Source: a virus
IMG/VR virus record: IMGVR_UViG_3300025379_000003
Coordinates: 1 to 64,000 of that record
DNA: 64,000 nt
Direction: 5' to 3' (one strand)
Shown here in pieces: positions 2,044-38,799 of the stretch; within the stretch, counting starts at the first letter, position 1; each line of letters opens with the position of its first letter. A model generated the notes under the pieces. It was given only the letters and a program-made list of their open reading frames with translations, searched no databases and was not told where the DNA came from. The translations under genes were made by a program, and so were the position numbers.

Positions 2044-2256
2044 ATGAACCCTAGATTAAGACAGTTGATGCTTCAAGCAGGCTATGCGGCACCTGAAATG
2101 GCAGGACGTGCCCAAAGGCTAGCTGAACTGGTTGTGGCGGCGTGCGTGGAACAGGTGGTAACTGGGGTAAAGACCAATCCACCCCAAGCAGAACCTCCCC
2201 AGCTGGTGGGAATCCTCGCCCGCAGAATCCAACAACATTTCGGAGTTGAACAATGA
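2044..2256 (+). CDS. FAELIVREC/HFGVE family small protein, divergent copy 1
   Basis: 70 residues, first gene of the operon behind the promoter at 1976, with AAAGAAAGG before the ATG. It is the most divergent of five paralogues: MNPRLRQLMLQAG at the start, LAELVVAACVEQV in the middle and IQQHFGVEQ at the end. The family pattern is a short N-terminal helix, a central AELIVREC helix and a C-terminal IKxHFGVE. Function is unknown; similar proteins are common and often multicopy in T4-like phages. The codons for FGVE carry a GGAG that can act as ribosome site for the overlapping next gene. Confidence 0.82.
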   Translation: MNPRLRQLMLQAGYAAPEMAGRAQRLAELVVAACVEQVVTGVKTNPPQAEPPQLVGILARRIQQHFGVEQ

Positions 2257-2462
2257 ACGAACGAATTCAGGAATTAATACTAGAAGCAGGAATAATTCAC
2301 TATGAAGAGGGCGGCGACCTACTAGAAACATTCGCCGAGTTGATTGTTCGGGAATGTGCTGGATTATTTCCAAATGTGTATGTAGAAATTGAAAACGAAC
2401 ACGGGCACACTCCTGTTATTGCGGCGGATTATATAAAAAAACATTTCGGAGTTGGAGAATGA
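2253..2462 (+). CDS. FAELIVREC/HFGVE family small protein, copy 2
   Basis: 69 residues, overlapping the previous stop by ATGA. It shows the family pattern MNERIQELILEAG, TFAELIVRECAG and IKKHFGVGE. The GGAG at the preceding gene's FGVE codons is spaced seven bases from this ATG. Unknown function; probably arose by tandem duplication with copies at 2044, 2631, 3058 and 3425. Confidence 0.83.
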   Translation: MNERIQELILEAGIIHYEEGGDLLETFAELIVRECAGLFPNVYVEIENEHGHTPVIAADYIKKHFGVGE

Positions 2463-2647
2463 ACGAAGAATTTGAAATAGCAGGAGTGATAGGAACAGAA
2501 AAGTTCCCCCAAGTTAGACAATTATGGGACGGGCATACAGTCCATACCGATCAATCTGACGAACGAACTGTGCCCATGATGTTTAAGAATCTTCCTGCTG
2601 GTACGCAACTATTCATTAAGAAAACAAAAGATGAACGAACGAATTAA
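2459..2647 (+). CDS. Small protein of unknown function, non-paralogous spacer gene
   Basis: 62 residues, ATGA overlap with the gene before. It starts MNEEFEIAGVIG, sharing only MNE with the family, and ends KKTKDERTN. The sequence LWDGHTVHTDQSDERTVPMM looks like a small beta-rich domain. Its last codons overlap the start of copy 3 at 2631. No function can be assigned. Confidence 0.75.
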   Translation: MNEEFEIAGVIGTEKFPQVRQLWDGHTVHTDQSDERTVPMMFKNLPAGTQLFIKKTKDERTN

Positions 2648-2855
2648 AGAACTTGCTGAACAGGCTGGCTTATCTCTATCACAAAAAGATTACAGTTACT
2701 ATTGGGTTGAATCTAATGAAGATATAGAAAAATTCGCCGAGTTGCTTGTGAGAGAATGTGCTAATGCTATTGCCAATGACAGTCGCTTGAATGATGTTCG
2801 TAGTGCCGCTAATGGTTGTGTGAGAACGATTAAAGAACATTTTGGAGTCAAATAA
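2631..2855 (+). CDS. FAELIVREC/HFGVE family small protein, copy 3
   Basis: 74 residues with the canonical pattern MNERIKELAEQAG, EKFAELLVRECAN and TIKEHFGVK. It overlaps the preceding gene by 17 bases and the following one by one base. Tandem paralogue of the genes at 2044, 2253, 3058 and 3425. Unknown function. Confidence 0.83.
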   Translation: MNERIKELAEQAGLSLSQKDYSYYWVESNEDIEKFAELLVRECANAIANDSRLNDVRSAANGCVRTIKEHFGVK

Positions 2856-3058
2856 TGATTAAACTAACAGAATCGGAAGAAAAAGATTTGCTGGCGTATT
2901 ATGCGTCATTTGAAATTGATGAACAGGAGACCGTTCAACCAGACTGGGTAAGTAGGAAATTTCCTTCTACCGGGCGGGTGTGCCGCTGTGTTGAATCAAA
3001 TGGTTCAGTTATTATCAAACAGGTTGTGGAATACTATCCAAATTTTGGAGTCAAATAA
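2855..3058 (+). CDS. Small protein of unknown function ending NFGVK
   Basis: 67 residues. The body (MIKLTESEEKDLLAYYASF, then VSRKFPSTGRVCRCVESNG) is unrelated to the flanking paralogues, yet it ends NFGVK just like them. The matching 3' end (TTTTGGAGTCAAATAATG) supplies the ribosome site for the next gene, so the shared ending looks like a kept translation-coupling element. Confidence 0.77.
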   Translation: MIKLTESEEKDLLAYYASFEIDEQETVQPDWVSRKFPSTGRVCRCVESNGSVIIKQVVEYYPNFGVK

Positions 3059-3273
3059 TGAATGAGCAAGCCAAACAACTTGCCCTACAGGCTCTTAAAC
3101 ATCCTGATAATGACAATGATGGACTAACTGTATTTGATAATGACGAATTAGAAAAGTTCGCCGAGTTGATCGTTCGGGAATGTGCCGAGGTTGCCGACAA
3201 TGCTGATGCTACTAGAGAAAAATGGCAAAGCATTGGTAAATTTGTAAAAGAACATTTCGGAGTTGAAGAATGA
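3058..3273 (+). CDS. FAELIVREC/HFGVE family small protein, copy 4
   Basis: 71 residues: MNEQAKQLALQA, EKFAELIVRECAEV and FVKEHFGVEE. It shares one base with the previous stop and overlaps the next start by four bases. Same family and same coupling arrangement as its neighbours; function unknown. Confidence 0.83.
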   Translation: MNEQAKQLALQALKHPDNDNDGLTVFDNDELEKFAELIVRECAEVADNADATREKWQSIGKFVKEHFGVEE

Positions 3274-3428
3274 GCAATCTTTGGTTTAATATTAGATTTG
3301 GCACTAGACATTTTCAGTGGTCAAGAGATTGGGAAATCACATTCCGTGTGAATCCTTACTTCATTGAGAATCCACCCACACGATGGTTTGAGGTGTATTG
3401 TTTATTCGGAAAGCAGATAGGGTTATGA
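3270..3428 (+). CDS. 52-residue protein of unknown function
   Basis: A short frame filling the gap between two family members, with ATGA overlaps at both ends. It encodes MSNLWFNIRFGTRHFQWSRD, then WEITFRVNPYF and a C-terminus FEVYCLFGKQIGL. It is rich in aromatic and basic residues. The GGAG in the FGVE codons of the previous gene is its ribosome site. This explains an otherwise empty 150 bases. Confidence 0.72.
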   Translation: MSNLWFNIRFGTRHFQWSRDWEITFRVNPYFIENPPTRWFEVYCLFGKQIGL

Positions 3429-3670
3429 ACGAACGAATTAAAGCCCTTATGGGAAAGACACTAGATAGCGAATTCAGTCACACCTGGGACACCATGACAT
3501 ATGAAGGCTTGCTACAATTTTCAGAAAAGTTCGCCGAGTTGATTGTGAGAGAATGTGCTCAATCGTTTGAAGCAGAAGTAGATACTTGGAAAGAAATGGT
3601 GCCATATCAAGGCAGTATGAAACGCAAGGGCACACAAGCGATTAAACAACATTTTGGAGTTGAACTATGA
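3425..3670 (+). CDS. FAELIVREC/HFGVE family small protein, copy 5
   Basis: 81 residues starting at the ATG of the ATGA overlap, giving MNERIKALMGKT as in the paralogues; a longer frame from 3398 would only add a non-homologous extension. Core SEKFAELIVRECAQS, end AIKQHFGVEL. Unknown function. Confidence 0.82.
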   Translation: MNERIKALMGKTLDSEFSHTWDTMTYEGLLQFSEKFAELIVRECAQSFEAEVDTWKEMVPYQGSMKRKGTQAIKQHFGVEL

Positions 3671-3864
3671 TATTAGAAGATTTGGAATATATTTTTGGGC
3701 CGCAGGTTGACGAAGGTACAACTAATTTGTATTACATGTTGATTGATGGCGAGCATCGAGTAATAGAACGACACAATGCCACGGCCATGGCCCGGCTGGT
3801 GCCCCTACTGGATAATTTCCAATATGCAGGCACTGAGGCAGGTATGCCAAGATTTACAAAATAA
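3667..3864 (+). CDS. Small protein of unknown function, end of paralogue operon
   Basis: 65 residues, ATGA overlap with copy 5 and the GGAG of its FGVE codons as ribosome site. MILEDLEYIFGPQVDEG is acidic; the rest looks like a small mixed alpha/beta domain. No family recognised. Confidence 0.74.
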   Translation: MILEDLEYIFGPQVDEGTTNLYYMLIDGEHRVIERHNATAMARLVPLLDNFQYAGTEAGMPRFTK

Positions 3865-4484: not shown

Positions 4485-5038
4485 AAACCCCGCTGTACGA
4501 ACTCAGCGCGGACAGCATCATCCAGTGTGAAAACCCCGCTGTAAGCAGTTGAAGAACGGGTAGAAACTTGGTGAAGATTGTGACGGGATTCAGACTGAAG
4601 AATTGGTGAAGAACTGGTGAATCTTCAACGGATTTTGACTGAATCTTCAACGGACCATTTGACTATAGCCGACGGTGACTCCACCCATCCAAAAAAATTT
4701 TAGCCAAAAATCCCTAGTTTAGGCACTGTTTCACACCAAAAACCCCGCTAGAACACCATGATTCTCCACCATTTCTCACCATTTTCACACCAGGATTAGA
4801 CTGGGATTTCTCGTGTTTTCTTCACAATTTTTCTACCATTATTTTACCCTAGTGTTGCGTGTGTACAACGGTGTCAACAACTTCCTGATTGCTCACACCG
4901 TGGCGTCCGTGTATAATAAGTACATAGACTAAGATACTAATACACACTGTATATAGTGGATTCAGCAACAGGAGCTCGTAGTCTAAGTTCTTGCATGCAA
5001 GAAAAACCCCGCTGTATAGAGTGTATAGAGTGTATATA
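4485..5038. other. Non-coding region with dispersed AAAACCCCGCT repeats
   Basis: About 550 bases without a supported gene. AAAACCCCGCT occurs four times (near 4487, 4532, 4739 and 5004; three continue GTA). AATCTTCAACGGA occurs twice near 4620-4660. A promoter-like element lies at 4889-4917 and a tRNA follows directly. Confidence 0.6.
4889..4917 (+). promoter_or_regulatory. Promoter-like element before tRNA-Met
   Basis: TTGCTC at 4889-4894 and TATAAT at 4912-4917 with a 17-base spacer, about 120 bases before the tRNA. The -35 is weaker than in the early array. Confidence 0.5.
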
Positions 5039-5116
5039 GGGCCGTTAGCTCATGTTGGTTAGAGCAGTGGACTCATAATCCATTGGTGCTTGGTTCGACT
5101 CCAAGACGGCCCACCA
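5039..5116 (+). tRNA. tRNA with CAT anticodon (Met type)
   Basis: Folds as a full cloverleaf: acceptor GGGCCGT/ACGGCCC, D arm GCTC/GAGC, anticodon stem GTGGA/TCCAT with loop CTCATAA (anticodon CAT), T stem CTTGG/CCAAG with loop TTCGACT, discriminator A and an encoded CCA. Elongator Met is likely; an Ile tRNA with modified C34 cannot be excluded. Confidence 0.9.
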
Positions 5117-5373
5117 AATGTTTGATAAACCGTAGGACCAGTGGATAAAGATGTGTGATGCTGATCAGGAGGTTAGAGTCCGTCGGGTCAGCTAAATCAC
5201 ATTGAGCTAGTGATCATAGATCCGGCGCACACAGTCCGAACTCGTGACCTAAACTCTAACAGGTTAAGGCTAGTGGTGAGCTTGATCACAGCAGGAACAA
5301 GCGAGGCGGGACAGCATGGAGATACTTGCTCACGTGCTGTACTAGTGTATAGGGGACCTAGTCCCCATCACTT
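5117..5373. other. Non-coding interval between tRNA-Met and minus-strand early genes
   Basis: No gene supported. Near 5350-5364 there is a perfect hairpin GGGGACCTAGTCCCC, just past the stop of the minus-strand gene, which could serve as its 3' stop structure although no T-run follows. Confidence 0.45.
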
Positions 5374-37737: not shown

Positions 37738-38799
37738 TTATGCTTCCTCAGTTTCATTTGTTGTATCGACAGCAGGAGTTAATGCGGTTTCGTCCCATTC
37801 TTGCATAATGGTCATGAGTTTATCCTCAGTCCATCCTTTACGGAAAAACGCATGGATCTCACCTGTTGCCTTACTTGTATATTGTAACTTGTTACCTGAT
37901 TTTGTCAATATACCTTTTGCTTCAAATAGATCAACTAGTCCACTTGTTGGCGCCATACCTGTTGAATAGGGAATCTTAACTTGTACAGTTTCAAATGGTT
38001 TAGCATAACGAGTTTTCATGATCTTACAAGCTGATCGAATACCTAATACTTCGGACACCTTATTGCCATCCTCATCTTCTTTCAACTTCAACTTCTTCAT
38101 GGCAACCACAATGGAACTTGCGTAAATGAATCCTTGTCCTCCAGAGATTTTATCATCTGGATCAAACATATCTTGACTAGCGTATGTGTGATTTGTAGCA
38201 ACCAACCCAACATTATAACTGCCAAACATGTTTACACAATTACGAACAAGACTGGTCAGTGCTTTGGGCTTACGACCCATATCACCTTTCATTTCGCCTG
38301 CTTCAAATTGATTTACATCAGTTGGAGTAAGCAACATGCCCAATGAATCAACCACAAATAACACCTTAGGACGTTCTTCTTCTGGCATTACCTTGTACTC
38401 TTTCATGAATTCTGAAATAGTTTTTGCTACATCATCAATCATGGCCATGTTGAGTTTAAGTAGTTTTTCTTCAGTGGTATCTACACCTAAATCATGTAAC
38501 CACTTTTCATCAAGAGCGTTTTCGCTATCAACTAAGATAACATAAATGCCTTGTTCTTGTGCGTGACGAATAATATTTCCGCTACAGATATATGATTTAC
38601 CTGCTCCACTTTCACCAGCAAAAACTGTTACTTTACCCAAAGGAATTCCTTTGAAGAAATCCCCTGAGATAAGATAGTTAAGAGCGTAGTTTCCAGTGCT
38701 GATCCAATCAGTCGGATCATTGAAGCCTATACCAAGCCCATCAATAGACTTGGTGATACTTTTTCTAAACTTACTAATGTCAAACGAACGACTTGCCAT
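37738..38799 (-). CDS. uvsX: UvsX RecA-like recombinase
   Basis: 353 residues. Walker A GESGAGKS (62-69), VLFVVDSLGML Walker B, VATNHTYASQDMFDPD and ISGGQGFIYASSIVVAMKK are in UvsX/RecA order. It catalyses strand exchange with gp32 and UvsY. Immediately downstream of gp32 and upstream of the acidic protein. Confidence 0.95.
   Translation of the reverse strand: MASRSFDISKFRKSITKSIDGLGIGFNDPTDWISTGNYALNYLISGDFFKGIPLGKVTVFAGESGAGKSYICSGNIIRHAQEQGIYVILVDSENALDEKWLHDLGVDTTEEKLLKLNMAMIDDVAKTISEFMKEYKVMPEEERPKVLFVVDSLGMLLTPTDVNQFEAGEMKGDMGRKPKALTSLVRNCVNMFGSYNVGLVATNHTYASQDMFDPDDKISGGQGFIYASSIVVAMKKLKLKEDEDGNKVSEVLGIRSACKIMKTRYAKPFETVQVKIPYSTGMAPTSGLVDLFEAKGILTKSGNKLQYTSKATGEIHAFFRKGWTEDKLMTIMQEWDETALTPAVDTTNETEEA

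Follow-up and report, generated by a model that had tools for sequence, protein, structure and literature searches.

Why do successive small genes in a phage array, including one that is unrelated to its neighbours, end in the same few codons immediately before the next start codon? The question is raised by positions 2044-3864 of a 64,000-base stretch of viral DNA (the window, positions 1 to 64,000 of IMG/VR virus record IMGVR_UViG_3300025379_000003), where five copies of a small-gene family and four unrelated small genes lie 3′ of a promoter sequence at 1976-2004.

A packed array of small genes with a shared tail

The window belongs to a 156,630-base record that encodes a terminase, a tail sheath, a DnaB-like helicase and a UvsX-like recombinase, and that therefore appears to come from a myovirus-type phage. 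The promoter sequence, a sigma70-type TTGACA-17-TATAAT on the + strand, matches the consensus at 12/12 positions, lies 40 bases 5′ of the first ATG and is likely the promoter of the array operon. Elsewhere in the window, a glycine-rich open frame with GG repeats (713-1495, - strand) probably encodes a structural or fibre-type protein, and 3′ of the array a tRNA-Met (5039-5116) sits within a long stretch without obvious genes (4490-5370).

All nine array genes are on the + strand. Copy 1 (2044-2256; MNPRLRQL at its start, LAELVVAAC in its middle, HFGVEQ at its end) carries GGAG at 2242-2245 before the ATG of copy 2 at 2253, and copy 2 (2253-2462; FAELIVREC at 2331-2357, C-terminus HFGVGE) carries GGAG at 2448-2451 before an ATG at 2459. 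The unrelated gene that begins there (2459-2647) has its stop inside the conserved start segment of copy 3 (KDERTN-stop, GATGAACGAACGAATTAA), and its homologue in locus L055 is located after a DRFGVEE tail; it gives copy 3 no GGAG, an exception to the junction rule within the array. Copy 3 (2631-2855; FAEL segment 2733-2759, C-terminus HFGVK, GGAG 2844-2847) is followed at 2855 by an unrelated gene with an apparently acquired NFGVK tail (2855-3058; GGAG 3047-3050), which leads to copy 4 at 3058 (3058-3273; FAEL segment 3157-3183, C-terminus HFGVEE, GGAG 3259-3262). The gene starting at 3270 (3270-3428; MSNLWFNIRFG...) is again unrelated, with homologues in L243, L074 and L090, and ends in GATAGGGTTATGA just 5′ of copy 5, which could serve that copy as a different ribosome site at a shorter distance. 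Copy 5 (3425-3670; FAEL segment 3530-3556, C-terminus HFGVEL, GGAG 3656-3659) precedes the unrelated last gene (3667-3864; MILEDLEYIF...), whose start at 3667 follows the copy 5 tail site and whose homologues in L189, L174 and L072 likewise come after an HFGVE tail.

An earlier note on this DNA had described five paralogues with GGAG about seven bases before the next ATG, and an unrelated gene at 2855 ending NFGVK with the same arrangement. Both observations are real: GGAG-N7-ATG is exact at 6/6 junctions, those of the five paralogues (2044-3670) and that of the 2855-3058 gene. Two details needed correction. The copies do number five, but they do not all carry FAELIVREC and end in HFGVE or HFGVK, as copy 1 has LAELVVAAC and copy 2 ends GVGE; and the ATGA overlap ascribed to the genes does not apply to copy 3 or to the gene at 2855, both of which have TAATG, a 1-base overlap.

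The tail as the probable ribosome site of the next gene

We gathered loci mainly by DNA patterns for FAELIVREC-like motifs, avoiding bias toward the tail, and added two small targeted scans for tails without an overlapping start codon and one further scan that brought in relatives of the 2855 gene. The profile used to identify members covered the N-terminal and middle parts and excluded the tail. The sample comprises at least 338 loci (L numbers), with at least 557 distinct members in the first set and at least 727 in the last, and all sequences are metagenomic contigs. The family was encountered almost exclusively in viral contigs: only 4 contigs were found among 84,980 bacterial and archaeal genomes, all of them from metagenome bins.

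Where a start codon lies 6-8 bases 3′ of the site, the tail glycine is GGA in 514/530 copies (97%) and GGAG is present in frame in 488/530 (92%). The corresponding values for copies without such a start codon, a small sample in which the magnitude of the effect varies with the definition of ‘no gene follows’, are 24/38 (63%, P = 2e-10 versus coupled copies) and 16/38 (42%, P = 2e-13). Under our first definition of coupling, a downstream frame of at least 35 codons, which put copies with longer overlaps or a short next frame in the wrong class and was redefined, the GGA contrast was weak (517/537 versus 23/26, P = 0.08) and the GGAG contrast remained (487/537 versus 18/26, P = 0.003), with the GGA excess persisting in copies that have a short next reading frame (23/26). 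GGA accounts for about 24% of glycine codons in the same genes, and GGAG stands at 4-11 bases in only 215/934 non-family overlapping gene pairs from the same loci versus 382/439 family pairs. Given the in-frame GGAG frequency, this codon background and the non-family pairs, the GGAG-N7-ATG pattern is not chance.

The geometry of the site is equally constrained. The start codon is at N7 in 384/411 coupled copies, so that a Shine-Dalgarno sequence at working distance is kept by codon choice, and ATG overlaps the stop region in 459 of the 557 members, as in a translationally coupled operon. Genes ending FGVxx-stop with ATGA (277 copies) and genes ending FGVx-stop with TAATG or TGATG (78 copies) both place the ATG 7 bases after GGAG, and therefore RNA spacing, not protein length, is what is kept; overlapping GTG or TTG starts keep the spacing in 13/15 cases. 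Where the tail is extended, HFG may be retained with GGT or GGA-ATT codons, and the new ATG then has its own GGAG or GAGG ahead of it (L238, L245, L184 and L063); in L238 the HFG glycine is GGT and GGAG-N7 is found at the new ATG. The HFGVE tail DNA is thus very probably the ribosome site of the next gene, as the earlier note had proposed along with constraint on its codons, and we infer from the sequences that translation is coupled across the array junctions.

The tail element in other frames and on unrelated genes

We found the junction pattern at 387 distinct positions: 308 are in-frame family ends, and the other 79 are ends of other or frameshifted genes. In the 79, the longest upstream frame is 0, 2 or 1 in 46, 21 and 12 cases respectively, and the element reads GVEE-stop in frame 0, RS-stop or WS-stop in frame 2 and ELKNERTN-stop in frame 1. 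Since these junctions carry the element in all three frames, outside the in-frame family reading, the tail element is conserved as DNA. Frameshifted family copies ending TFRS-stop or TFWS-stop (L069, L170, L220 and L094) retain both the element DNA and the ATG.

Tails are also gained and lost. Homologues of the 2855 gene share one body but vary in their ends (YYPNFGVK-stop, DPFGVEE-stop, YHKKCGKT-stop and YSELNNG-stop, the element in another frame), and a solo homologue in L258, with no array member preceding it, ends QVVSL without the element. Among non-family genes with in-frame GGA-G N7 ends, F stands before G in 26/78, which would not be expected from convergence on GGAG alone. The same tail was seen in many phages (L096, L003, L039, L160, L173 and L192) on a further unrelated family (RETELINTLQPALNTFGVK), which by eye may be GIY-YIG-like.

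Mosaic genes and three apparent joints

The earlier reading concentrated on the tail and overlooked that FAELIVREC and MNERIKEL are strongly codon-conserved and also serve as joints. FAELIVREC is fixed for GCC (81% versus 19% background), GAG (84% versus 22%) and TTG (83% versus 27%), and MNERIKEL for CGA (82% versus 18%). From these segments and the sharing described below, family genes are two-module mosaics with a start joint (MNERIKEL), a middle joint (FAELIVREC) and a tail joint (HFGVE). Sharing between gene pairs with a common prefix stops at FAEL in 134/167 partial cases, and between pairs with a common suffix it begins at FAEL in 108/130, FAEL being ~30% of the length in each comparison. 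The remainder is unrelated in 164/186 and 128/149 family pairs, versus 22/128 and 18/141 for non-family small genes at the same loci. With exact whole-gene duplicates (633 copies, 576 distinct) left out, clustering of the halves gave 134 pairs of distinct copies that share only the 5′ half, 100 that share only the 3′ half and 20 that share both; in the resulting 234 one-half pairs, identity is at least 85% over the half in common and the other half is unrelated. More than one 3′ partner was found for 54/62 recurrent 5′ modules, and several partners for 51/60 recurrent 3′ modules.

The window copies illustrate this pattern. L255 holds a chimera in which the 5′ half of copy 5 (L255:3774-4004, about 98.5-99% identical) is joined to the 3′ half of copy 3 together with the gene after it (94.6%), and copy 2 has a 3′ half 94% identical to L052:9309-9569 and an unrelated 5′ half. 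L254 matches window positions 2826-3170 at 99%, with edges in the copy 3 tail and the copy 4 FAEL joint, while L261 has window blocks in a different order. Block edges fall at joints in 168/197 cases against 44% of the length, a count inflated by the tendency of BLAST edges to extend through shared motifs. The tail does seem to act as a recombination point, as had been suggested, but mostly between phages and not for tandem duplication, with only 2 of the 234 one-half pairs lying within a single contig.

Identity edges at the FAEL and the tail/start joints, together with a UvsX-like gene (37738-38799, - strand; PF00154 E 7.5e-17, phrog_97 UvsX-like E 2.9e-70), are what a mosaic made by homologous recombination would present. 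Searches of the 156.6 kb record found no reverse transcriptase (PF00078), though the record may be incomplete, and neither tyrosine integrase (PF00589) nor serine resolvase (PF00239); ERF recombinase was not found either. A diversity-generating retroelement, which calls for a reverse transcriptase in the genome, was set aside on the absence of PF00078 from the record searched, and site-specific cassettes of the integron or shufflon type on the absence of PF00589 and PF00239. Because a UvsX-like protein is present and reverse transcriptase, integrase and resolvase went undetected, homologous exchange over short conserved DNA would be the simplest route, with the UvsX-like protein as a candidate enzyme of the exchanges.

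Local gene conversion is a weak explanation of the codon fixity, as codon concordance within loci is only slightly above permuted values and conservation is as high in single-copy loci as in arrays. Part of the fixity of the tail may come from recombination, since codons are fixed at FAELIVREC and MNERIKEL too, and neither of these is a ribosome site. The GCC GAG TTG ATT fixity of the FAELIVREC joint (for example at window positions 3157-3183) is global and extends to single-copy loci, and with that fixity the joint may have a further role as DNA or RNA.

Alternative readings of the tail and the modules

It could be argued that HFGVE is kept for the protein, and that GGAG arises by accident because GGA and GTT codons are common. 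F, G and V rank with the best-conserved residues, the segment forms the end of the predicted third helix, and most copies that lack a following gene have HFG[VI] or one of the close versions HFEV, HFAV and HFDL. However, GGA is used in nearly all coupled tails and in about a quarter of glycine codons elsewhere in the same genes, N7 is fixed with either overlap type, and the same DNA occurs in three frames and on unrelated genes. The out-of-frame junctions refute the full form of this argument, and we give it hardly any credence. The opposite position, that the tail is purely a ribosome site with incidental amino acids, is the strong form of the earlier reading. Frameshifted copies ending TFRS-stop, which drop the protein tail and keep the site, speak for it. 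Terminal copies were expected to lose FGVE, and FG[VI] is indeed less frequent where no gene follows (26/41 versus 537/668, P = 0.015), but most such copies still keep it; copies without a following gene retain HFG[VI] or HF[EAD][VIL], in some cases with codons that destroy GGAG (GGC in L109, GGT in L076, GGG in L047 and L113), and the extended tail of L238 retains HFG with its new site downstream. ‘RNA rather than protein’ was thus too strong, and a tail shaped by RNA only is improbable. Because copies with no following gene keep HFG[VI] or close forms, some with GGAG-destroying codons, a protein constraint exists beside the ribosome-site constraint, and the two act together on the tail and are separable in nature.

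Two further explanations concern the mosaic itself. If an old tandem family had diverged vertically, with fast-evolving parts between conserved helices and no shuffling, drifting loops could account for conserved segments that coincide with the three predicted helices. This is very unlikely in the face of the 234 one-half pairs and of the 5′ modules with more than one 3′ partner, a pattern rare in non-family small genes. Misassembly at short repeats could also make chimeras, as every sequence is a metagenomic contig and each joint is a repeat 20-36 bases long. In most cases, however, the shared halves are not the same from one contig to the next, being less than 99% identical in 223/234 one-half pairs (median 91%), and assembly error is therefore a most improbable source of the chimeras; in addition, 83 of these pairs have at least one member that recurs full-length in another contig, and the 2 pairs within one contig are the only ones of their kind.

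The proteins and a proposed mechanism

The family proteins are probably small three-helix proteins. An AlphaFold model of copy 4, of modest confidence (mean pLDDT 75), has helices at residues 3-13, 28-51 and 59-67, matching the three joints in position; the variable modules are mostly linkers, along with the last part of the middle helix. Of 100 members searched, no more than one matched any given Pfam, PHROG or PADLOC family, and PDB sequences gave no match to the family. Among INPHARED phages, none was found by tblastn with a window copy or a typed consensus-like protein, or by blastn with a 58-base junction. Fold searches with the model returned no PDB fold (best E 4.1) and, in BFVD, only uncharacterised proteins of uncultured phages (best E 0.0075); no literature was found on the motif HFGVE. 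By analogy with other small phage proteins from early operons, these proteins may bind host targets.

The explanation we favour, and hold to be quite probable from the sequences compared here, is that the array is an operon of genes built from three joints and two modules, in which the tail joint doubles as a ribosome site and modules are exchanged between phages. The array would be an early-type operon of small proteins in a myovirus, and each gene would consist of three codon-conserved segments (MNERIKEL, FAELIVREC and HFGVE with the stop/ATG) flanking two variable modules. The end segment would have three jobs: coding for the end of the last helix, supplying a Shine-Dalgarno GGAG at a constant distance of 7 bases ahead of the ATG (for de novo initiation or termination-reinitiation), and acting as a joint at which genes, unrelated ones included, can be exchanged with translation of the operon unbroken. 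The middle segment would be a second joint, so that 5′ and 3′ modules reassort between phages, most likely by UvsX-type homologous recombination, and protein diversity is presumably what selection favours. Rather more tentatively, at somewhat less than even confidence, such arrays could be a dedicated diversification system of lytic aquatic phages, in which three codon-fixed joints would allow homologous recombination by the phage itself to reassort the two variable modules of a small scaffold protein and to add or drop whole genes, while the built-in site would have any new combination translated straight away.

Relation to known systems

The arrays offer a countable case for an old question of phage evolution, namely how mosaic exchange at short shared sequences leaves genes working: where the shared sequence is both a protein end and the ribosome site of the next gene, exchange there should give a translated gene. 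The family is widespread in uncultured water-borne phages and absent from the family libraries searched, and the two-part modular design of its proteins may reflect diverse binding targets. In a limited search of open papers we found no precedent for the combination of a coding joint that doubles as a ribosome site with a mid-gene joint across hundreds of small paralogues, and the known systems nearest to it share separate parts of this design.

Embedded Shine-Dalgarno sequences and ATGA/TAATG overlaps are well known in translational coupling (reviewed in PMC12548453), which has in common with the array the -4/-1 overlaps, the Shine-Dalgarno sequence in the end of the upstream gene and the polycistronic operon; here, in contrast, one ~20-base site serves hundreds of paralogues and unrelated genes, in three frames and at one spacing. 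PeSLs, cited in PMC4503421, are regulatory cassettes that mediate shuffling and likewise place conserved regulatory DNA, tied to gene shuffling, between small myovirus genes. They consist of a promoter and a stem-loop, whereas in the array the element is a ribosome site that lies within the coding sequence, and there is a further joint in mid-gene. The array was not assigned to the PeSLs, as its six junctions have no intergenic space; the only perfect consensus promoter precedes the first array gene, and weak promoter matches are no more frequent than in shuffles.

The nin region of lambdoid phages (PMC8022706) is likewise a dense run of small early genes in mosaic phages, most of them uncharacterised and many of them overlapping by ATGA, but that account does not present the nin genes as a single paralogous family whose halves can be exchanged. 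Domain mosaicism of phage proteins, in which domain shuffling through recent recombination leaves otherwise unrelated proteins sharing fragments (PMC10684548), is similar in outcome. The proteins treated in that work are mainly receptor-binding, lysis and replication proteins, whereas those of the array are ~70 residues long and have their joint at a single fixed motif.
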